IMG/VR virus record: IMGVR_UViG_3300010334_000241
Coordinates: 1-25,443 of that record
From: a virus
DNA length: 25,443 bases
Strand: one strand, 5' to 3'
In this document: in pieces, positions 2,299 to 19,681 of the stretch
How the letters are laid out: each line of letters starts with the position of its first letter
Position numbering within the stretch: position 1 is the first letter of the stretch
The notes under the pieces: generated by a model
Told to the model about the DNA's origin: nothing
The model's database searches: none
Seen by the model: the letters and a program-made list of their open reading frames with translations, nothing else
Position numbers and translations under genes: made by a program

Positions 2299-2348
2299 GT
2301 TGTATTTTTGCAACACAAAAACTAGTACTTTTGTTGCATTTTTACAAC
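2299..2348. repeat. two tandem copies of the GTTGYA-4nt-TRCAAC palindrome
   Basis: GTTGTA-TTTT-TGCAAC at 2299-2314 and GTTGCA-TTTT-TACAAC at 2333-2348, centres 34 bp apart. The second copy contains the stop codon of the SleB gene, as the copy at 1711-1730 does for its upstream gene. Both lie between that gene's end and the promoter at 2239-2267. Confidence 0.55.
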
Positions 2349-2878
2349 ATAGCTAGCCAGCTGTTTCGCGCTTTGGTGTAGAAAATATGACGCCCAATTT
2401 GTGTCACTTTGTGCTCTTGTACTGCCCAATGCGGATCTTTAATATAGTCAGCATGGTAAAATAAACTCTTGTCAAGACTGGCAACTTTATAGCCATGTAT
2501 GACATCCCATGCAACGCTTTCCGCTTCAGCATATAGTGCTGGATTGGGTTTGGGTAGTTTCTTTTTTAAGGTCCAAGAAAATTGCCCCCGGGCATAAACA
2601 ACAGAACAAATATCTTTGCCCCAGTAGCCTGTGCTGAGCCGGTTCAGTGTGACATGGCCCACTGCATACTTGCCAACTTGGTCCTCTACTCCGGCCTCAT
2701 AATAGATGTTGCGGGCCAGGCATTCAAGATCTTTAGGGGTGTACTTGACTGTGGTTGAGGTTTTTACGATTCGATTTAGGTCCTCAACTTCACTTTGAAT
2801 AATGTCCAATCGTGATTCTATACGAACCATAAAGAGTAACAGAGCTGAAATTCCTAATACGGTGAGCCACTTATTCAT
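2342..2878 (-). CDS. membrane-anchored SleB-type cell wall hydrolase (probable endolysin)
   Basis: 178 aa. An N-terminal hydrophobic helix (residues 4-19) with few flanking charges looks like a signal anchor, followed by a short coiled stretch (22-40) and a Hydrolase_2/SleB domain from about 48 to the end. Family marks visible: LARNIYYEA with the likely catalytic Glu61, GHVTLNR, C91 and GQFSW (98-102). SleB-family enzymes cleave peptidoglycan glycan strands as lytic transglycosylases or amidase-like hydrolases. Here host lysis is the likely role, with export through Sec in a signal-anchor-release manner (inference). GAGGTAAAG precedes the ATG. It is a single-gene unit under the promoter at 2911-2939. 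Confidence 0.88.
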   Translation of the reverse strand: MNKWLTVLGISALLLFMVRIESRLDIIQSEVEDLNRIVKTSTTVKYTPKDLECLARNIYYEAGVEDQVGKYAVGHVTLNRLSTGYWGKDICSVVYARGQFSWTLKKKLPKPNPALYAEAESVAWDVIHGYKVASLDKSLFYHADYIKDPHWAVQEHKVTQIGRHIFYTKARNSWLAML

Positions 2879-2986: not shown

Positions 2987-3571
2987 TTAGAACCAGAGTA
3001 AAACGCCCTGACTACTCAATAACATGCCAATGCCTGCAACAATAAAACTGCTCCAGAACAACGGAATGCTGACTGCCAATATACTTGCTGACAGTACAAC
3101 AATTGATAATTGGTATGCAGTACTTGCATAGCCAATCCACGGACTACGCTTTTTGGCCTCATCTCGTTCTGCTTCAAGTGCCTTTGCTTTGATCATTAAA
3201 TCTCGCTTGCCATCTTTGGGTTCGTTTTCATAACGATCAATTCTAGCCTTCAGCTCGTCTGCCCGTTTAACATCCTTTGCTCGTAGTGCATCATCACGAG
3301 CATATTCAGCCATGGTTTGTTTCATGGACTTGGCTTGATAAAAAGCCCAAGTGTCATTTGCTTTAATTGTATTGTTTAGTACTGTTGAACCAAGGGTGCC
3401 GCCGTACCATGCATTGACTGCAAGTAACAATGCAAATACATTGATAACCATACCAGCTTTGTCTTTGATTTTTGCTTCGCGCTCTGATCTTGATCCAACT
3501 GGAGGCTTTGGTGCATCTGGGTCCTTTGGTGTTTTATTGATTAAATTCATTACGCTGTCAATAAGTGCCAT
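2987..3571 (-). CDS. DUF4337-like membrane protein
   Basis: 194 aa. Basic, Pro-rich N-terminus ("DPDAPKPPVGSRSEREAK"), a first span at about 40-58 ("VINVFALLLAVNAWYGG"), then NNTIKANDTWAFYQAKSMKQ, a characteristic signature of DUF4337. A long charged helix follows (about 80-145), then two C-terminal spans (about 150-168 and 172-192). DUF4337 proteins are inner-membrane proteins of unknown function found in bacteria and T4-type phages. AAGGATT precedes the ATG. A 17-aa peptide gene lies just upstream, and an intrinsic terminator follows. Confidence 0.8.
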   Translation of the reverse strand: MALIDSVMNLINKTPKDPDAPKPPVGSRSEREAKIKDKAGMVINVFALLLAVNAWYGGTLGSTVLNNTIKANDTWAFYQAKSMKQTMAEYARDDALRAKDVKRADELKARIDRYENEPKDGKRDLMIKAKALEAERDEAKKRSPWIGYASTAYQLSIVVLSASILAVSIPLFWSSFIVAGIGMLLSSQGVLLWF

Positions 3572-3662: not shown

Positions 3663-4742
3663 TTATTTTGCCAATTTGGTAGCTTGACTTATTCTATAAT
3701 TTGATTTGTCTGGATGGCAGGAATGAAAACAGCTCATTAATGCTCGGTCTGTGGTAATACGATTGTAAATCCAATCAAACCCTCGATCTACAATGGCACT
3801 CACTGTTGTGCTTGCAATCAAATCCTGTAGAGTCAGTCCGGCTTCGGCTAGTGCAGTTGCAAAACTGGCATAGCGATGATCTGTTTCTCGAGTAAAAGAT
3901 AGGACTCCAATAAAACAACATGGCGCAACAGACCAATCTGCACCAACATAAATGCTCCTGGTTCGCAGGCTTTCACAATTGTCCAAGCTGGGCAATGGCG
4001 TACTGTTGTGCATTTGTACAGCTCGAAATGTTCCATTGCGATATCTTACTTCTTTTGATTGCAATTCGGCCAAAGTTCTAGTGCTTGAAGTATATGGAGC
4101 AGTTGGTGCTGGTAGCAACTCATGTGTGGTATTTCCATTCTTGTCCCTGGCTGGAGCAAAATATCTATCACTGTGTCTGGCATAGAATTTTGCAAAACCC
4201 AGTTGCTTTGCTAGGCTTGCACACTCATCAACTTGATGATCGTTGTGGGCGAACCTGGTCATGATCCAATCAGCTGTTCCGCCGGCATTGATAAATGTCT
4301 TGGCATTGTCAATGATAAACTTCCAATTGGTCTGTCGTCTATACAAGTGATGTGTATCTTCCAGACCATCCAGTGCAAATGATATTCTAACATTTTTTAT
4401 CAGGGCCAGACTTTTCCAAAACTCTGGAGTCCTGGCTGAACCATTGGTGTTGATTTCAATCTGTGCTGTTGGACTTGCTGAACTGAAGTGCTGTATAATT
4501 TCCAGTGCATCTCGATTTGTAATGAAATCGCCCACGGTGCCGTTGATGAGAAACTTTTCAATATTGACCAGGTCTGCTGTTGGTAATCGAGCTCTAACCT
4601 GTTCAATGGTCCAAACTTGATCCATACTAATACTAGGATGTTCGTACAAGCTGGAAGTTGGATATCTAGCACACAACGGGCAGGCCGCATTGCATTGCGA
4701 ACTGATTTCCAAATGCAGATGTTTAACTGCTGACCAATTCAT
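3663..4742 (-). CDS. radical SAM protein with C-terminal cysteine-rich (twitch/SPASM-like) region
   Basis: 359 aa. The radical SAM cluster motif CNAACPLC is near the N-terminus (Cys17, Cys21, Cys24), followed by barrel-type segments ("IEINTNGSARTPEFWK", "RISFALDGLEDTHHLYRR"). The C-terminal third adds cysteines ("NCESLRTRSIYVGADWSVAPCCF" and "CFHSCHPD"), compatible with an auxiliary cluster domain of the twitch/SPASM kind. Such proteins usually modify peptides, proteins or carbohydrates by radical chemistry; the substrate cannot be read here. The start ATG overlaps the stop of the glycosyltransferase (TAATG). It is the third gene of the PlcP-like/GT4 operon, so a role in envelope or glycolipid chemistry is possible (inference). 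Confidence 0.85.
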   Translation of the reverse strand: MNWSAVKHLHLEISSQCNAACPLCARYPTSSLYEHPSISMDQVWTIEQVRARLPTADLVNIEKFLINGTVGDFITNRDALEIIQHFSSASPTAQIEINTNGSARTPEFWKSLALIKNVRISFALDGLEDTHHLYRRQTNWKFIIDNAKTFINAGGTADWIMTRFAHNDHQVDECASLAKQLGFAKFYARHSDRYFAPARDKNGNTTHELLPAPTAPYTSSTRTLAELQSKEVRYRNGTFRAVQMHNSTPLPSLDNCESLRTRSIYVGADWSVAPCCFIGVLSFTRETDHRYASFATALAEAGLTLQDLIASTTVSAIVDRGFDWIYNRITTDRALMSCFHSCHPDKSNYRISQATKLAK

Positions 4743-5749
4743 TAAACCTTCTCTACCAGGTTGTCTCTGAATATTTCCCAGGCTCGTTTCCATGTCCATC
4801 TTTGACTTACTCTATGCACATCGGCTCTGTTAATTTTCAAACACTTGTCAACTGCCGCCGCCAGACCTTCGCTTTCTTCAACCATGAATCCGGTAACACC
4901 TTGATCAATCACATCAGCAGGTCCTTGGCAGTTATACGCCGCTACAGGAGTGCCACAGGCCATGGCTTCAATCATTACCAGTCCAAATGTTTCCCATTTA
5001 CTGGGGAATACAAACACTTCAGCATTGGCATAGTAACGAGCAAGATCAACTCCTGTCTTAAATCCTGTGAACACAACTTCTGGATATTGCCGGCGATATG
5101 TTTCCAGCATGGGGCCATCTCCTACCATGATTTTTTGATAACCAGGATAGTCTAATTCTAAAAACGCTTCTAGATTCTTTTCCTTGCTGACACGACTTAC
5201 GCACAGCAAGTATCTACTAGGAAAGTCTTCTCTCAGATCAGGAGTAAAGATCGCACGGTCAACACCGCGAGTCCAGGGCAATACTTCGCCACCGAATCCG
5301 TGTGCTTTTAGTTCAGCAACCATTGAATCAGTAGTTGTTAAAACTTTGCCGCTATGTTTATGAAACCATCTAACAAAGCGCCAAGTAATCCATTCAGGAA
5401 CTCCAAATAGCTTTCTGAGCCCTTCAGGAAACTTAGTGTGATAAGCGGTATTGTGGCGAATATTAGCCAGTGAAAGATATGCTCTAGCCCACAGACCAAG
5501 AGGACCTTCTGTGGCGATATGGATATAATCCGGATTGATCTCCTCAATCTTCTTGCCCAGATTGCGCGGATAGGCAATCTTGACTTCGTTGTAGCCAGGG
5601 CAATCAATGTAGCTGAACCACCCGGGATGAAGCACCACAAAGTTATAACCATCCAAAATCGCATGCGCCTCAATATTTGTGTAGGTCGTAACCACGCCAT
5701 TTATTTGCTCCGGTAAATTATCTGTTATTATCAGTATTGTCTTTGTCAT
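4742..5749 (-). CDS. GT4-family glycosyltransferase, Agt-like (diacylglycerol glycosyltransferase candidate)
   Basis: 335 aa, GT-B fold. The N-terminal domain has NGVVTTY at residues 17-23 (acceptor-side glycine loop) and EINPDYIHIATEGPLG. The C-terminal domain has LCVSRVSKEKN, MVGDGP (208-213) and the E-x7-E motif (Glu253, Glu261, "SKWETFGLVMIEAMACGTPV"). This layout fits retaining GT4 enzymes using nucleotide sugars. It overlaps the upstream PlcP-like gene by 32 bp. In phosphate-starved bacteria the pair PlcP plus Agt replaces phospholipids by glycolipids, with Agt adding sugar to diacylglycerol. The pairing supports that role here. Alternatives are a mannosyl- or capsule/LPS-type glycosyltransferase. 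Family confidence is high, substrate moderate. Confidence 0.88.
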   Translation of the reverse strand: MTKTILIITDNLPEQINGVVTTYTNIEAHAILDGYNFVVLHPGWFSYIDCPGYNEVKIAYPRNLGKKIEEINPDYIHIATEGPLGLWARAYLSLANIRHNTAYHTKFPEGLRKLFGVPEWITWRFVRWFHKHSGKVLTTTDSMVAELKAHGFGGEVLPWTRGVDRAIFTPDLREDFPSRYLLCVSRVSKEKNLEAFLELDYPGYQKIMVGDGPMLETYRRQYPEVVFTGFKTGVDLARYYANAEVFVFPSKWETFGLVMIEAMACGTPVAAYNCQGPADVIDQGVTGFMVEESEGLAAAVDKCLKINRADVHRVSQRWTWKRAWEIFRDNLVEKV

Positions 5750-6497
5750 TGCTTTTGGTCCATGTAATTATTTCCCAACGACCGTCATGATGTTCTACAA
5801 GTGCAGTACACGATTCTACCCAGTCACCGTCGTTCATATATATGATGCCATCTATTTCTTTTATTTCCGCGTGGTGTATGTGTCCACATATGACTCCATC
5901 ATATCCACGCTTTTTACAATAGGTGGCTAGATTTTTTTCAAAGTGGAATATAAAGTCCACTGCTTTCTTTACTCTTGCTTTGAGATACTGACTAAGACTA
6001 AAGTACCCAAAACCCATACGATGACGTAGCCAATTGTATTTGCTATTAAGCGATAAAATGATATCATATGCCTTGTCTCCTAAAAATGCTATCCACGGTG
6101 CCAATCTTGTGATACCGTCAAACAGGTCGCCATGTGTAACAAGATAGTGTCGACCATCAGCACCTATGTGTTCTATTTGATTGTGTATTTCCACCAGGCC
6201 AAAACTAAATCCATATGGTATCATGGGTCTCAAAAACTCATCATGATTGCCGGCAATGAATACAACTCGAGTACCACGCTTGGCATGTCCCAATACTCTA
6301 CGAACAACATTGGTGTGGCTTTGTTTCCAACGCCATTTGTTTTGTTGAATCTTCCATGCATCAATTATATCGCCTACTAGATATAATGTATCACAACTGT
6401 TGTGTTTAAGGAAATTGTTCAGCTGTCCAGCTTTACAATCTCTAGTGCCTAAATGTACATCGGAAACAAAAATTGAGCGATAAGTTTTGGCTGTCAT
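5718..6497 (-). CDS. PlcP-like calcineurin-fold phosphoesterase (phospholipase C / LpxH-type, COG2908)
   Basis: 259 aa. All metal-binding blocks of the metallophosphoesterase fold are present: SDVHLG (Asp13, His15), GDIID (42-46), GNHDE (83-87), THGD (121-124) and GHIHH (205-209). The C-terminus has the NDGDWVESCTALVEH block that I associate with the COG2908 subgroup containing PlcP, the phospholipase C that hydrolyses membrane phospholipids to diacylglycerol under phosphate limitation. The same subgroup is often annotated as UDP-2,3-diacylglucosamine diphosphatase (LpxH). Its coupling with a GT4 gene favours PlcP. No obvious ribosome site or sigma70 promoter is seen upstream of the ATG. It would act at the inner membrane. 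Confidence 0.88.
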   Translation of the reverse strand: MTAKTYRSIFVSDVHLGTRDCKAGQLNNFLKHNSCDTLYLVGDIIDAWKIQQNKWRWKQSHTNVVRRVLGHAKRGTRVVFIAGNHDEFLRPMIPYGFSFGLVEIHNQIEHIGADGRHYLVTHGDLFDGITRLAPWIAFLGDKAYDIILSLNSKYNWLRHRMGFGYFSLSQYLKARVKKAVDFIFHFEKNLATYCKKRGYDGVICGHIHHAEIKEIDGIIYMNDGDWVESCTALVEHHDGRWEIITWTKSNDKDNTDNNR

Positions 6498-6547
6498 ACC
6501 ATTACTTATCGCCCAATTGTGGATTTTTGTGTTACTGTTTTGTTACA

Positions 6548-6706
6548 CTAAATCCTAACCAAAGTCCATTTTGTTGTAAATGACTTACCTTCGGCCTTGT
6601 GTTTCAGTATCTTTGCAAACTCTTTTTGACGGAGTTCAGCAATGGTTTCTGTATCATGGTCGACGCAAGCCCTGTACAGTTTAGCCAGTAGCTTTTTCTG
6701 TTTCAT
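6548..6706 (-). CDS. 52-aa basic phage protein
   Basis: Starts [20 protein letters not shown] and ends in a basic segment ("[18 protein letters not shown]"). Helical and lysine-rich, with no membrane segment. A strong AAGGAGGA site lies 8 nt ahead of the ATG, and a GATAAATA late-type motif (6728-6735) lies about 20 nt upstream. It is divergent from the amidotransferase-like gene at 6750, whose own late motif is immediately adjacent. Function unknown; I recognise only the general look of T4-type small proteins. Confidence 0.75.
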
Positions 6707-6749: not shown

Positions 6750-7391
6750 ATGAAGCCCACTGTAGCACTATTTTTAGCTGATCCAAAATGTTCAGTGCAA
6801 AGTGGAAATGGTATAATGAATGCACTTGGGCAATATTACAATTTTAAAGTGTTTGGAAAAAATGCAGTAGAAGATGTATTTTTCAACAATGTTGATATAA
6901 TTGCTGTGCCTGGTGGAATAGGTGATGCCGACAGCTTTGAGAACTTGTTCAAATACAACGGTGAACGAGTTCGGCAATTTGTTAAGGATGGCGGGCGGTA
7001 TTTGGGAATTTGTATGGGTGCCTACTGGGCAGGCTCACACTATTTTAATATCTTAAAAGACATTGATGCAGTACAATACATAACTCGTCCTGGAACTGAT
7101 ACACGCAGGCCACATGCAAAAAACATTTCAATTGACTGGTTAGGAAAACCTATGAACATGTTCTGGTATGATGGCTGTGCTTTAGTTGGTGCAGGATATC
7201 ACGACACCATTGCCAAATATGCTAATAATGATGCTATGGCGATAATACAAAACCGTATTGGTCTAATTGGTTGTCATCCAGAAAGCGAACAGTTCTGGTA
7301 TGATGGATACAGTTGGATGACGGGCAAGTACCACGGGGGTACTCACCATCAACTCTTGCTGGAATTTACTGATTCTCTTTTGAAACAGTAG
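6750..7391 (+). CDS. class I glutamine-amidotransferase-like protein (BPL_N type)
   Basis: 213 aa. Contains GICMGAYWAG with the nucleophile-elbow Cys88, VPGGIGD (53-59) and a later CHPE (His176, Glu178), completing a Cys-His-Glu arrangement of the class I amidotransferase fold. The start and spacing resemble the N-terminal domain family of eukaryotic biotin-protein ligase (BPL_N), found as a free-standing protein in bacteria and phages with unknown reaction. No synthetase partner domain is fused. It is a solo plus-strand gene with a TATAAATA motif 4 nt before the ATG and no ribosome site, so probably a late, leaderless transcript (inference). Its 3' end overlaps the convergent 51-aa gene by 26 bp. 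Confidence 0.85.
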   Translation: MKPTVALFLADPKCSVQSGNGIMNALGQYYNFKVFGKNAVEDVFFNNVDIIAVPGGIGDADSFENLFKYNGERVRQFVKDGGRYLGICMGAYWAGSHYFNILKDIDAVQYITRPGTDTRRPHAKNISIDWLGKPMNMFWYDGCALVGAGYHDTIAKYANNDAMAIIQNRIGLIGCHPESEQFWYDGYSWMTGKYHGGTHHQLLLEFTDSLLKQ

Positions 7392-9465: not shown

Positions 9466-9786
9466 TTAGACTCTAAAACTTTCACCGCATCCACAGCGGT
9501 CTTTCTCGTTGGGGTTAATGAATTCAAATCCTTCATTTAGCCCTTTGCGTACATAGTCCACAGTCAACCCGCTTAGATATACGCTACTCTTTGGATCCAT
9601 AAAAATCATACATCCTTCACAGTCAAAACATTGATCCCCTGTGGCCTGACTGTCTACATATTCTAACACATAAGCAAGCCCAGAGCAACCGGTAGTTTTC
9701 ACTCCAAGTCTAATGCCCAGTCCGTGGCCTCTACGGCTCAACATGCTTTGGACCTTGTGCTTTGCTGGCTCAGTCAATGTTATCAT
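9466..9786 (-). CDS. iscA: A-type iron-sulfur carrier (IscA/ErpA/HesB family)
   Basis: 106 aa. The three family cysteines are present: Cys34 in TTGCSGLAY and Cys98/Cys100 in CGCGESF near the C-terminus. [18 protein letters not shown] matches the core. A-type carriers accept Fe-S clusters and deliver them to apoproteins. Two extra cysteines in the middle ("QCFDCEGC", residues 53-59) are not typical and may form an additional metal site. GGGG precedes the ATG. It is in the same strand run as the kinase/nucleotidyltransferase and iscU, with no IscS. IscA, ErpA and SufA cannot be separated from sequence alone. Confidence 0.93.
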
Positions 9787-9797
9787 TTTTCCCCATG

Positions 9798-10589
9798 CTA
9801 CTCAAGGCCTAATTCCTTACGAATTTTTGTGGCACTGATATCTGTTACTGCGTTATCAAATGTTTCTTCACCGGCAGTATAGCCTACTCCACGACCCCAA
9901 CCAATGTGTACAATGTTAGGAACAACTTGTATTTCATATTGACCCTGATATAATGGATCTAAATCACGCTTGATAAAGCTTTTGACTTTGGCCACTTCAA
10001 ATGGGTTACTGCCTTGCCAGCCTTGCACATCACGCACTTGAATGATCACTTGACCAGTACGAGCCAGCAGGCGTTCAAACAACGCACGATGACCATCATG
10101 CCATGGTTGCCAACGGCCCAGCATTTGTACTGTTTCTTTCTTCCAATCAAACACAGGCCTACGACGATTGTCCAGTATGTGTCCTGCAATAAACTCGCCC
10201 CATGTTTCTGCTTTTTGCACAGTCACTCGGAAGTCATAAACTTCGGGTTCTACAAACATGGCATTGGTATCTGCATAACGACCTTCGCGAATGGTATCTA
10301 CCCAAATGGTCCAGTCTGCTTTGAAGTTGTTACGCATTTCAACCAAGGGTGCAACAAAGTCACAAATTACAAAATCGGTATCATAACTGTCTGCAAGTTC
10401 TCGCATACGCAGACTTTGACGAATACGGCCTTCATGACTGAAATCCCAATCGTTGTATTTTTTACGAACATCGTCGGCATTGAGCCACATTACTGTTTTC
10501 TTTTCAGCTTGCAAGTGATCTAATACATGCTGTGCCAATGTGGTTTTGCCCGAGCCCGGAAGGCCCATGATTAAAATTCTAGTTGGCAT
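9798..10589 (-). CDS. P-loop kinase (APS-kinase-like) fused to HxGH nucleotidyltransferase
   Basis: 263 aa. Domain 1 (about 1-145): Walker [10 protein letters not shown] (9-17), then [20 protein letters not shown], resembling adenylylsulfate kinase (CysC). Domain 2 (about 150-263): [10 protein letters not shown] (158-167) and ISATKIR (251-257), the two signatures of the cytidylyltransferase/NMN-adenylyltransferase fold. Two readings compete: a PAPS-synthetase-like enzyme feeding a sulfotransferase (a candidate is at 20897-21868), or an NAD-salvage enzyme of kinase plus NMN adenylyltransferase type, like NadR but in reverse order. The ATG overlaps the end of iscU by 11 bp; the longer in-frame start would overlap it further. 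Confidence 0.88.
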
Positions 10590-10959
10590 GTTTGGCCTTA
10601 TAGTCGGCAACAGCGGCCTTGATGGCATCTTCAGCCAAGATACTGCAATGAATTTTCACTGGTGGTAGCGCCAGCTCTTCGGCAATCTCACTATTTTTAA
10701 TCTTGGAGGCATCATCCAATGTCATGCCCTTGACCATTTCAGTTATAAGACTACTTGATGCAATAGCTGAACCACAGCCGTATGTTTTGAATTTTGCATC
10801 AGTGATTATTCCATCTTCTACTTTGATCTGTAATTTCATCACATCACCGCAGGCTGGTGCACCTACCATGCCAGTGCCAACATCAGTATCATCTTTTGCA
10901 AATGAGCCAACATTCCTGGGATTCTCGTAATGGTCAATTACTTTTTCTGAATATGCCAT
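10579..10959 (-). CDS. iscU: iron-sulfur cluster assembly scaffold protein IscU
   Basis: 126 aa, normal IscU length. Cluster ligands Cys37 (GAPACGD, with Asp39), Cys62 (YGCGSA) and His104-Cys105 are all present, so it should be functional. The LPPVK motif (98-102), the HscA chaperone-binding site, is also kept, suggesting it still works with the host chaperone. IscU builds 2Fe-2S/4Fe-4S clusters with sulfur from IscS, which is not encoded here. The ATG overlaps the stop of the 63-aa membrane protein (TAATG). The transcript probably starts at the late-type motif at 11290-11297. Confidence 0.96.
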   Translation of the reverse strand: MAYSEKVIDHYENPRNVGSFAKDDTDVGTGMVGAPACGDVMKLQIKVEDGIITDAKFKTYGCGSAIASSSLITEMVKGMTLDDASKIKNSEIAEELALPPVKIHCSILAEDAIKAAVADYKAKHAN

Positions 10960-12642: not shown

Positions 12643-12953
12643 ACACTATCGCATTCAATCAACATCTTGGCCATGGCCAAGTCTTCTCGATTCTTAAAGG
12701 CCACTGCAACGCCAATGGTATTGCCGCCACGCATCGGATCTAGAAATTGTTGCTGTGCCACATTGACAATGTCAATTTGATGTTCTTCTAACTGCTGTCG
12801 AACCTCGGCGACAGCCTCTCGGATATCCTTCTGAATGGTTATGTATTCATTGCCTGTTACATCCTCATAGAAGTGAAACTTCTTGTACACCATCCAATAG
12901 TTTGATCGTTCATCAGACCAATACTGATTGTAATTGTTTATTGCCTTTGCCAT
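12630..12953 (-). CDS. hypothetical protein, 107 aa
   Basis: Starts MAKAINNYNQYWSDERSNYW. Aromatic N-terminal third, then a long helix ("IQKDIREAVAEVRQQLEEHQ"), a beta segment and an ending with "FKNREDLAMAKMLIECDSVYG", like a small alpha/beta (ferredoxin-like) fold. No motif is recognised. Its ATG overlaps the end of the serine hydrolase gene by 16 bp, so it is the second gene of that operon. Confidence 0.7.
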   Translation of the reverse strand: MAKAINNYNQYWSDERSNYWMVYKKFHFYEDVTGNEYITIQKDIREAVAEVRQQLEEHQIDIVNVAQQQFLDPMRGGNTIGVAVAFKNREDLAMAKMLIECDSVYGL

Positions 12954-14095
12954 TTTTGAAACAACCCGTAGATTTCATCCATGTAATCTTCTCGACTACT
13001 GGTCACCACAATAATCTTTTCGCTCACTGGATCAACACCAACTCGTTGTCCGCCAAAACCCACCCACCAATAACTGGCTTTTTGTCCCCAGCGTTCGGGC
13101 ATGATCCAGGTCTGATATCCATATCCAGAAAACGCTCGGCCTGCTTCGCCAGTTGAGTTTGGCAATTGTTCTGTGGTAGCTTCTTTCATAAAACTACTGA
13201 TGCATTTATCTTCAGACTTTAGCTGTTTGATAGACCACATGGCCAGACGTCCCCAGTCTTTGCTGGTTGCACTAAACCCTGCCTGTGCCACTGCTTTATT
13301 GTCTTTGTCAACCAGCCAATGTCCTGGTCCTTGACTGCCAATCTGCGACCATATGTGCTTGTTAAAATTATCAACAAATCCACCTGTATGATCTGCAACA
13401 TTTGCCAAGCTTAATGTATCAGTTCCATTGTAAGCAAACCTGGATCCACTGGCCACTGGTCTGCCCCAAGAGGTGTCACGATCTGCATCGTGCTTGATCA
13501 TTTCTAAACCAGTCATAATACCGGCTCGTTGCATCAGCCAGCCGTCACAATCTCTAGCAGGATCACATGTACCTGGTTGTTTCTTAATTAAATTTCCTGC
13601 ATATATAGCTCTACGAACACCACTACTCATTGTTAGCAAATTCTTTACTGTTGCTTCGCCATATACTGTGTCTTTGAGGTCCGGAGAATATGTCTGCGCT
13701 GGTTTATTGAGATCTGGTATTTTACCTTCGCATGACATGGCGCCAACGGTGTATGCAGTTAAACTCTTACTCATGGACCATGAAAAGTTCAACGAGCGTG
13801 GACTTGCTGGTTGTCGATACTTTTCAAACACCAGCTGTCCCTTTTCTATCATTACAATAGACAATGATGCATTACGATCAAACATGGATTCTGCTTGATT
13901 AATAATATTGCGGTCCGACTCGGTCAATACTTTATTAGGTAATAGATTAGGTTGATCTGCCGCCGGCAAACGAATGTTTGGATACCGGAATGCCATGCCA
14001 CCTGTGGCTTGACTGGGGGTGATCTCACTGGGTGCTGAATAAACTGCAACTGCTGAACAGCAAAGAACCAGGCATATTGCTGATTTTTTAAACAT
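12938..14095 (-). CDS. secreted serine beta-lactamase-fold hydrolase (class C / esterase EstB / NylB type)
   Basis: 385 aa. Signal peptide MFKKSAICLVLCCSAVAVYS (cleavage near residue 20; the cysteines also allow a lipoprotein reading). The active-site motif SMSK has Ser107 and Lys110, and Y-x-N is YNG with Tyr222 ("SRFAYNGTDTLSL"). A C-terminal WWVGFGGQRVGV segment corresponds to the third, glycine-rich element. This is the beta-lactamase/penicillin-binding-protein fold used by esterases, D-aminopeptidases and oligomer hydrolases, and the substrate is not readable. Periplasmic location suggests action on the host envelope or on antibiotics/oligomers. TAGGTGG precedes the ATG. Promoter at 14128-14156. 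Confidence 0.9.
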   Translation of the reverse strand: MFKKSAICLVLCCSAVAVYSAPSEITPSQATGGMAFRYPNIRLPAADQPNLLPNKVLTESDRNIINQAESMFDRNASLSIVMIEKGQLVFEKYRQPASPRSLNFSWSMSKSLTAYTVGAMSCEGKIPDLNKPAQTYSPDLKDTVYGEATVKNLLTMSSGVRRAIYAGNLIKKQPGTCDPARDCDGWLMQRAGIMTGLEMIKHDADRDTSWGRPVASGSRFAYNGTDTLSLANVADHTGGFVDNFNKHIWSQIGSQGPGHWLVDKDNKAVAQAGFSATSKDWGRLAMWSIKQLKSEDKCISSFMKEATTEQLPNSTGEAGRAFSGYGYQTWIMPERWGQKASYWWVGFGGQRVGVDPVSEKIIVVTSSREDYMDEIYGLFQKWQRQ

Positions 14096-18525: not shown

Positions 18526-19404
18526 TTACCAATTAATAAATCCACTTGCATCATCAATGTCTTCAATTTTAATAACAATAGATCGAGATGTCATGAAAGT
18601 CATGTAATTGTTTAATCGTTTACTGACCAGCTCGTTGCGTATTTTTTTGCTTGGTGAGCCTAGTACTATAAAATCTACATCCTGGTCCTTATGATGCACT
18701 TGCATGTCAATGCACCAGCCAGCTGGATTAGTAAATCCAGTTTTGGCAATCTTGATATCATATTTTCCTGCAAATGCATTGGTGTTACGAATCACTAACT
18801 TTTGCCATATGCCCCGGCGAGTCCGGGCTTCTGCACTGGCTGTTGCGCTCATTGCGGCTTCTTTGAAAATTGTATATTTAGATAGATGACGATTCAGCAG
18901 GTGTAAATCCCATGCGGTACTGGTGTTTAACAGGAGTCCAGTTGGTTCAATATAGGATGTATTCTTCATTCCCAGGCGTTGTGCCGTGGCATTCATTTCT
19001 CGAACAAATGAATCATAACCGTATGGATGGTATACAGCAAGCAATTTTGCCGCTAGGTTATCACTGGAGACAAGTGCAAGGTGTAGTAGTTCTCGTCGAG
19101 TAATTATCATACCAAGCTTGAGAACACGGCTACTTTCCACTGATTGTGGTACAACTGGCAATCTTTCATCCAAGTCTGCTCGACTTTCTAAGACTACAAA
19201 TGCAGTCATTAATTTTGTCACACTGGCAATTGGCATGATGTCGTGTATGTTTAGACCATGCACCAGTGTATCTGTTGTTGCATTAAAAACTAAAACTGCA
19301 CGAGCTGGTTCGCTAGGTGGTGCAGTTGTTTTCTTTTTTGCCTGTGCAGGCATTGCAAACATTACAACAATAAGTGGCCCGGCCAGCAGGAATCGAACCC
19401 ACAT
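18526..19404 (-). CDS. secreted penicillin-binding-protein-like D-Ala-D-Ala peptidase (PBP7/PbpG type)
   Basis: 292 aa from the ATG at 19404. The signal peptide MWVRFLLAGPLIVVMFAMPA (cleavage near AQA) is followed by a transpeptidase-fold domain: SVTK with Ser61/Lys64, SSDN (113-116) and KTG (221-223, "KIAKTGFTNPAG"). These are the three motifs of low-molecular-mass PBPs that trim or cleave peptidoglycan cross-links, so a role in lysis or wall remodelling is likely. The start codon and signal peptide lie inside the tRNA-Arg gene 19375-19449 on the same strand. Shorter starts at 19362 or 19353 would lose the signal peptide. It ends 31 bp before the beta-helix gene. Confidence 0.88.
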   Translation of the reverse strand: MWVRFLLAGPLIVVMFAMPAQAKKKTTAPPSEPARAVLVFNATTDTLVHGLNIHDIMPIASVTKLMTAFVVLESRADLDERLPVVPQSVESSRVLKLGMIITRRELLHLALVSSDNLAAKLLAVYHPYGYDSFVREMNATAQRLGMKNTSYIEPTGLLLNTSTAWDLHLLNRHLSKYTIFKEAAMSATASAEARTRRGIWQKLVIRNTNAFAGKYDIKIAKTGFTNPAGWCIDMQVHHKDQDVDFIVLGSPSKKIRNELVSKRLNNYMTFMTSRSIVIKIEDIDDASGFINW

Positions 19405-19449
19405 TCTAGAGGTAGAAGCTCTATGTACTATCCATTGTACTATGGCCAG
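19375..19449 (-). tRNA. tRNA-Arg(TCT)
   Basis: Acceptor CTGGCCA/TGGCCGG, anticodon loop CTTCTAC giving TCT (reads AGA), T-loop TTCGATT, discriminator G and encoded CCA. The start of the peptidase gene lies within its variable region/T-arm. Confidence 0.9.
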
Positions 19450-19459
19450 ATGATGCAAT

Positions 19460-19681
19460 TTAAACGATCTTACCAAGGACTCGATAAATCAGTTGGTCCA
19501 ACTCTTGCTGGTAGTCTTTGCCATTTCTACGCTTTAGATACATTGACTCGACTAGCTCTTTAGCGTCGGTATTGCCCTCAATTGGCAAGTTACCTCGAGA
19601 TTCTAATTCTTCAATTAGATCTTCGGTATCAAAATCACTTAGACTTACATCGACTTCGACTTCAGTATAGACTGTTGGCAT
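19460..19681 (-). CDS. acidic small phage protein, 73 aa
   Basis: Starts MPTVYTEVEVDVSLSDFDTE. Strongly acidic first half ("LSDFDTEDLIEELESRG"), which recurs in small T4-type phage proteins as I recall, then a helical, mixed-charge tail ("KRRNGKDYQQELDQLIYRVL"). AAAGGTC precedes the ATG. It sits between two tRNA genes. Function unknown. Confidence 0.75.
   Translation of the reverse strand: MPTVYTEVEVDVSLSDFDTEDLIEELESRGNLPIEGNTDAKELVESMYLKRRNGKDYQQELDQLIYRVLGKIV

Follow-up and report, generated by a model that had tools for sequence, protein, structure and literature searches.

Remodelling of membrane lipids through the paired activities of PlcP and Agt is an established bacterial pathway (PMC4796936, PMC8528852, PMC8231724). 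In Pseudomonas aeruginosa, the two enzymes are encoded by the PlcP-Agt1 operon (PA3219-PA3218), which has its Pho box upstream, and the product of PA3218 (Agt1) has been proven to make MGDG (PMC8528852). Similarly, in marine heterotrophs (Phaeobacter MED193, SAR11 HTCC7211; GTcp), plcP is followed by a glycosyltransferase gene and is associated with Pho boxes (PMC4796936, PMC8231724). Phages can also carry phosphate-stress genes that respond to the host, as pstS and others in cyanophages are likewise under the control of host PhoB (PMC10976474). Possibly the same kind of gene as that described here is the 'lpxH' auxiliary gene (K03269) of Lake Baikal viral metatranscriptomes, which was filed under lipopolysaccharide biosynthesis with no link to PlcP, Agt or a Pho box, in a table that also has stearoyl-CoA desaturase and cysC (PMC9611531). 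A search confined to the open literature found no account of a viral plcP, of a viral plcP-agt pair or of its promoter.

The viral locus described here shares both its gene order and its gene families with PA3219-PA3218, but its genes form clades of their own, the glycosyltransferase has Glu at the position of GTcp D256, and the associated promoters have TGTAAY half-sites and a TAAATA motif. Set against the marine heterotrophs, the difference is that the same families occur in phage genomes, where the partner is often a glycosyltransferase of family GT2 and pstS is sometimes nearby. The cyanophage PhoBR case differs in its Pho-box sequence, and lipids are unmentioned in that report (PMC10976474). 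Judged from their sequences, the two genes probably constitute a phage-borne phosphate-starvation (Pho-regulon) module, which would convert phospholipid to glycolipid and thereby free phosphate.

The stretch of viral DNA analysed, here termed the window, is 25,443 bases long, and its principal features are listed in Table 1. When it was re-read, the open reading frames, their coordinates and overlaps, the metal-binding motifs of the metallophosphoesterase (MPE) and the E-x7-E motif of the GT4 glycosyltransferase all proved to be as described in an earlier note on this DNA. The MPE and GT4 genes overlap by 32 bp (5718-5749), and the likely start of the radical SAM gene is the ATG inside TAATG at 4742, a longer open reading frame extending to 4799 being less likely.

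Table 1. Features of the window, with positions given on the whole stretch
Feature	Position	Strand	Description
Window	25,443 bases		virus record; 16 tRNA genes
plcP-like metallophosphoesterase (MPE)	5718..6497	-	259 aa; Pfam Metallophos 9e-11; PlcP branch of tree
agt-like GT4 glycosyltransferase	4742..5749	-	335 aa; Pfam Glycos_transf_1 3e-27; E253-x7-E261
Radical SAM gene	3663..4742	-	359 aa; Pfam Radical_SAM 9e-10
Pho-box-like 11-bp direct repeat upstream of plcP	6531..6547	-	TGTAAC-AAAAC-AGTAAC; degenerate copy
-10-like TAAGTA	6503..6508	-	22 nt after repeat; TAAATA in most relatives
Small ORF	6548..6706	-	52 aa, with Shine-Dalgarno; ends directly before Pho-box-like repeat
Glutamine-amidotransferase-like protein	6750..7391	+	Pfam BPL_N
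DUF4337 protein	2987..3571	-	
IscA-like and IscU-like iron-sulphur genes	9466..10959	-	either side of P-loop kinase (Pfam APS_kinase)
Serine hydrolase	12938..14095	-	beta-lactamase family (PF00144); signal-peptide-like start
Peptidase_S11	18526..19476		
Cell-wall hydrolase	2342..2878		

Among the other genes of the window, that for the glutamine-amidotransferase-like protein often lies close to viral plcP, being present in 57 loci, and the DUF4337 protein is found near viral plcP in 35 loci, in several of them just upstream of it. The P-loop kinase between the iron-sulphur genes has an additional C-terminal part, and the IscU, which is presumably of betaproteobacterial character, gives a hint at the host. 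The beta-lactamase family hydrolase is unusual for a phage. A PADLOC search for a link to defence systems gave no match at 1e-5.

The MPE has the full calcineurin-like dimetal set of ligands (D13xH15, D43, N84-H85, H122 and H206xH208), invariant among its relatives, and its AlphaFold2 model (mean pLDDT 80.2) matches calcineurin-like phosphoesterases. As the solved structures matched were LpxH or more distant phosphoesterases, sequence and fold searches of the PDB could not separate PlcP from LpxH. In a phylogenetic tree with five LpxH reference sequences, the viral proteins form a clade (support 100/99) that falls with PA3219 in the PlcP branch, PA3219 having been taken as the P. aeruginosa PlcP from its neighbouring gene cyaB and the GT4 gene downstream, and LpxH is split off with support of 100/100. 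The motif GNHD is found in 151 of 151 viral and 88 of 88 bacterial PlcP-type proteins, as opposed to GNRD in five of five LpxH; the LpxH model (NCBIfam TIGR01854) gives the window's MPE 32.3 bits against a cut-off of 190.35; and three of the five bacterial genomes with a PlcP-type gene that were tested also hold a separate LpxH above the cut-off. The model score, the motif, the tree and these separate bacterial LpxH together rule out an identification as LpxH. The protein is accordingly classed by its sequence as a PlcP-type enzyme, as the earlier note had suspected; enzymes of the COG2908 type may also act on other phosphodiester substrates. Identity between the window's MPE and PA3219 is 56%, and the closest cellular MPE found reaches only 59%, from which the viral proteins appear to be a long-standing clade of their own. 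The MPE of phage S-SRM01 lies on a long branch, with no firm placement in the tree.

Likewise, the viral GT4 proteins form a clade (100/100) within an Agt group that includes PA3218 and the GT4s adjacent to plcP in bacteria, the support for the group as a whole being moderate (88/94). The E. coli proteins WaaG, WaaB, WcaL, WcaC and WcaI fall apart from them, a position in the tree that rules out a lipopolysaccharide or colanic-acid enzyme and bears out the Agt-like identity first suggested for this gene. The window's GT4 is 41% identical to PA3218, and its AlphaFold2 model (mean pLDDT 90.7) has GT4-type enzymes as its PDB matches. Fourteen residues of GTcp have been found important by mutagenesis (PMC8231724), and 13 of these, in the donor and diacylglycerol sites, are kept in the viral GT4s, with H104, R163 and W320 of the diacylglycerol site kept across all of them. 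The catalytic D256 of GTcp is replaced by Glu in 103 of 103 viral GT4s (E253 in the window), whereas Asp is found in 52 of 54 bacterial relatives. In GTcp this exchange abolishes over 90% of the activity (PMC8231724), although other GT4 enzymes, MshA among them, use Glu at this position. For this reason, the viral GT4 is named Agt-like, a putative diacylglycerol glycosyltransferase.

Relatives of the MPE were found in at least 593 viral contig stretches in IMG/VR, the best 80 of which have identities of 85-91%, and relatives of the GT4 in 362; the occurrence of the plcP-agt pair in the window is therefore far beyond chance. In an unbiased set of 46 non-redundant loci, found via the MPE and having at least 1.2 kb of downstream sequence, the gene directly after the MPE encodes a GT4 in 17 and a GT2 (Pfam PF00535) in 27, and in a further two a small gene lies between the MPE and a GT2, such that the GT2 partner is present in 29 of the 46. 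The pair singled out in the earlier note thus recurs in many phages, and the same plcP-agt order is found in many bacterial genomes as well as in P. aeruginosa. Median dN/dS values relative to the window, of 0.046 for the MPE and 0.131 for the GT4, indicate that both genes are kept by selection. Carriers include T4-like phages, as 11 of 33 large contigs encode the T4-type capsid protein Gp23, and homologues of the MPE are present in two isolated phages, Pelagibacter phage Mosig (48% identity) and Synechococcus phage S-SRM01 (38%). In several phages pstS adjoins the module, but it is an inconstant companion, being found on three of the 33 large contigs; in the SAR11 phage Mosig, it is divergent from the MPE homologue, with TTAAC repeats 11 bp apart in between. 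Taken together, plcP-agt is a genuine phage module that is widespread and under selection.

Two further observations concern the surroundings of these genes. Loci L077 and L100 are parts of one viral contig of 524,565 bases, in which an MPE locus and a GT4 locus lie around 100 kb apart and which has a T4-type capsid gene. A fatty acid desaturase (PF00487) is often encoded within a few kilobases of viral plcP (cluster 4, 37 loci; for example L015:9724-10431), and is perhaps a further lipid-modifying gene.

The switching of the glycosyltransferase partner between GT4 and GT2, along with the universal Glu of the viral GT4s where bacterial relatives have Asp, would fit an arrangement in which PlcP is the right identity for the MPE but the viral GT4 works with a different acceptor or donor, making a product other than MGDG or GADG, with the GT2 variant generating yet another lipid. 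That such a departure has occurred is possible but rather doubtful, given that the three diacylglycerol-site residues and those of the donor site are kept.

The PlcP-Agt interpretation gains an additional line of support from the regions upstream of viral plcP, which contain a direct repeat, TGTAAY-N5-YGTAAY, with half-sites 11 bp apart. This is the geometry of the Pho box, for which the published consensus is CTGTCAT-N4-CTGTCAT (PMC8528852). The strict repeat was present in 43 of 112 plcP upstream regions versus 13 of 1478 control ORFs, the signal being lost at other spacings; where it occurred among the controls, the families were that of pstS (8/9) and one of coiled-coil proteins (8/10). 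At least nine of 14 matches to the published consensus were reached by 63% of plcP upstream regions against 16% of controls, the best match upstream of PA3219 being 10/14 by the same scorer, and in approximately 43% of plcP upstream regions even a relaxed pattern finds no repeat. The repeat is followed by the -10-like sequence TAAATA after 11 nt in 29 promoters and after 21-22 nt in 21. The two motifs are combined in 51 of 97 plcP upstream regions compared with 19 of 1373 controls (Markov shuffle mean 0.02), and of the 19 positive controls, eight precede pstS and eight the coiled-coil family.

As the combined pattern was derived from the same plcP data, a blind scan of 2.9 million IMG/VR viral contigs was undertaken with TGTAAY-N5-YGTAAY-N11-TAAATA, yielding at least 129 matches. 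Among the matches listed, 117 had a downstream ORF, comprising 45 plcP, 42 pstS and seven of the coiled-coil family, with the remainder including three more of PstS type (two confirmed as PBP_like_2) and one Na/Pi cotransporter. By contrast, a full scan with the spacing changed to 7 gave 12 matches in all, none before plcP or pstS. Because some of its contigs had already been used, the blind set is only partly independent as regards plcP; the enrichment of pstS is the stronger part of the scan. These associations support candidate Pho-box control of the plcP family at the level of the sequence motif, and not every Pho box predicted in a phage is functional (PMC10976474).

In the window itself the repeat is weak, with its AGTAAC half-site, its TAAGTA and 8/14 matches to the published consensus, and the proposal of Pho control therefore rests on the family and not on the promoter of the window. 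A search of the window alone with the E. coli consensus CTGTCAT-N4-CTGTCA, allowing up to three mismatches, found no excess over shuffles and no match upstream of plcP; the phage form TGTAAY is visible only from the upstream regions of relatives. DNA similar to the small ORF of the window precedes plcP in many of these relatives.

A number of features were observed around promoters of this type. In many phages TAAATA lies very near the ATG of plcP, such that the transcript would be nearly leaderless; pstS genes behind the same promoter type have a longer leader with a Shine-Dalgarno sequence. The coiled-coil-like family (MRxxDLAxRLVAVEAKLA..., cluster 32), encoded at L048:9707-10363 and in 12 other viral loci, has no clear Pfam match and lies downstream of plcP-GT2 or plcP-GT4, behind a Pho-type promoter in eight of ten cases. 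A membrane protein family (MDALTLWSLVGFLFAAYAVIANDSVQTLGTW...), found behind the phage Pho-type promoter in L307, L317, L323 and L382, has no Pfam match at 0.001 and presumably resembles PiT phosphate transporters. At the GT4 end, a Pho-type promoter is present in 13 of 102 GT4 loci.

The radical SAM gene has relatives in only eight viral loci, and its position beside the GT4 is shared with the window by no more than two close relatives. It directly follows the GT4 in L265; in L266 and L001 around 180 nt separate it from the GT4, a gap that contains a Pho-type promoter and a hairpin resembling a terminator; and in L267 a relative with 57% identity lies elsewhere on an MPE-bearing contig. This distribution does not support it as a third enzyme of the pathway, and the suggestion that it might further modify the lipid head group was not upheld, the gene being a local neighbour that is perhaps co-transcribed with the GT4, though outside the conserved module. 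Just past the GT4 in L001 (9905-10097) lie a strong Pho-type promoter and, after it, a terminator-like hairpin; no gene is evident between the two, and the element is possibly a phosphate-controlled small RNA or the remnant of a lost pstS.

The anatomy of the promoter suggests that, in an infected host short of phosphate, host PhoB-P would bind the repeat ahead of plcP, thereby activating transcription of plcP-agt. The PlcP-like enzyme would then strip the phosphate-containing head group from host phospholipids to leave diacylglycerol, to which the Agt-like GT4 would transfer a sugar (glucose or glucuronate, as with PA3218 and GTcp) from a UDP-sugar. The resulting phosphate-free glycolipid would keep the membrane intact, GT2 may take the place of GT4, and the freed phosphate could enter phage DNA. 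Phosphate-sparing remodelling of this kind was the core of the earlier note, and that idea now has the PlcP-like and Agt-like placements and the recurrence of the pair behind it, loses its radical SAM step, and is strengthened by the Pho-type promoter, which the note did not include.

Alternatively, the genes could serve to alter the envelope, by blocking superinfection, changing a receptor or aiding lysis, with the release of phosphate a side effect. Phage glycosyltransferases often modify the envelope, and cell-wall enzymes are also encoded in the window. Changes in membrane lipids are thought likely to affect the receptors of P. aeruginosa phages (PMC9804370). However, the promoter motif is common to pstS and the Na/Pi cotransporter and precedes an envelope-type gene, a porin, only once, making this an improbable primary role. 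It is very hard to sustain that an LpxH-type MPE and a lipopolysaccharide GT4 jointly alter lipid A or lipopolysaccharide, for although LpxH is the closest solved structure to the MPE by both sequence and fold, and public records call its relatives UDP-2,3-diacylglucosamine hydrolase or diphosphatase, the low LpxH score, the GNHD motif in place of GNRD, both trees and the separate LpxH in three of five bacterial genomes all argue against it.

With the genes read as a phosphate-starvation module, some of the environmental plcP sequences that serve to indicate phosphate stress in bacteria may come from viruses, and the name lpxH that phage genes now bear may be wrong. Phage particles are phosphorus-rich relative to cells, and it has long been asked where they obtain their phosphate in poor waters; a viral module converting phospholipid to glycolipid would supply one answer. 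More broadly, the balance of the evidence leans towards many large aquatic phages holding a dedicated viral Pho regulon, consisting of plcP with GT4 or GT2, pstS and sometimes other phosphate transporters, through which the host bilayer would act as a store of phosphate for phage DNA and be replaced by glycolipid. If true, such mining of the host membrane by a viral Pho regulon would represent a class of phage auxiliary metabolism new to the open literature searched.
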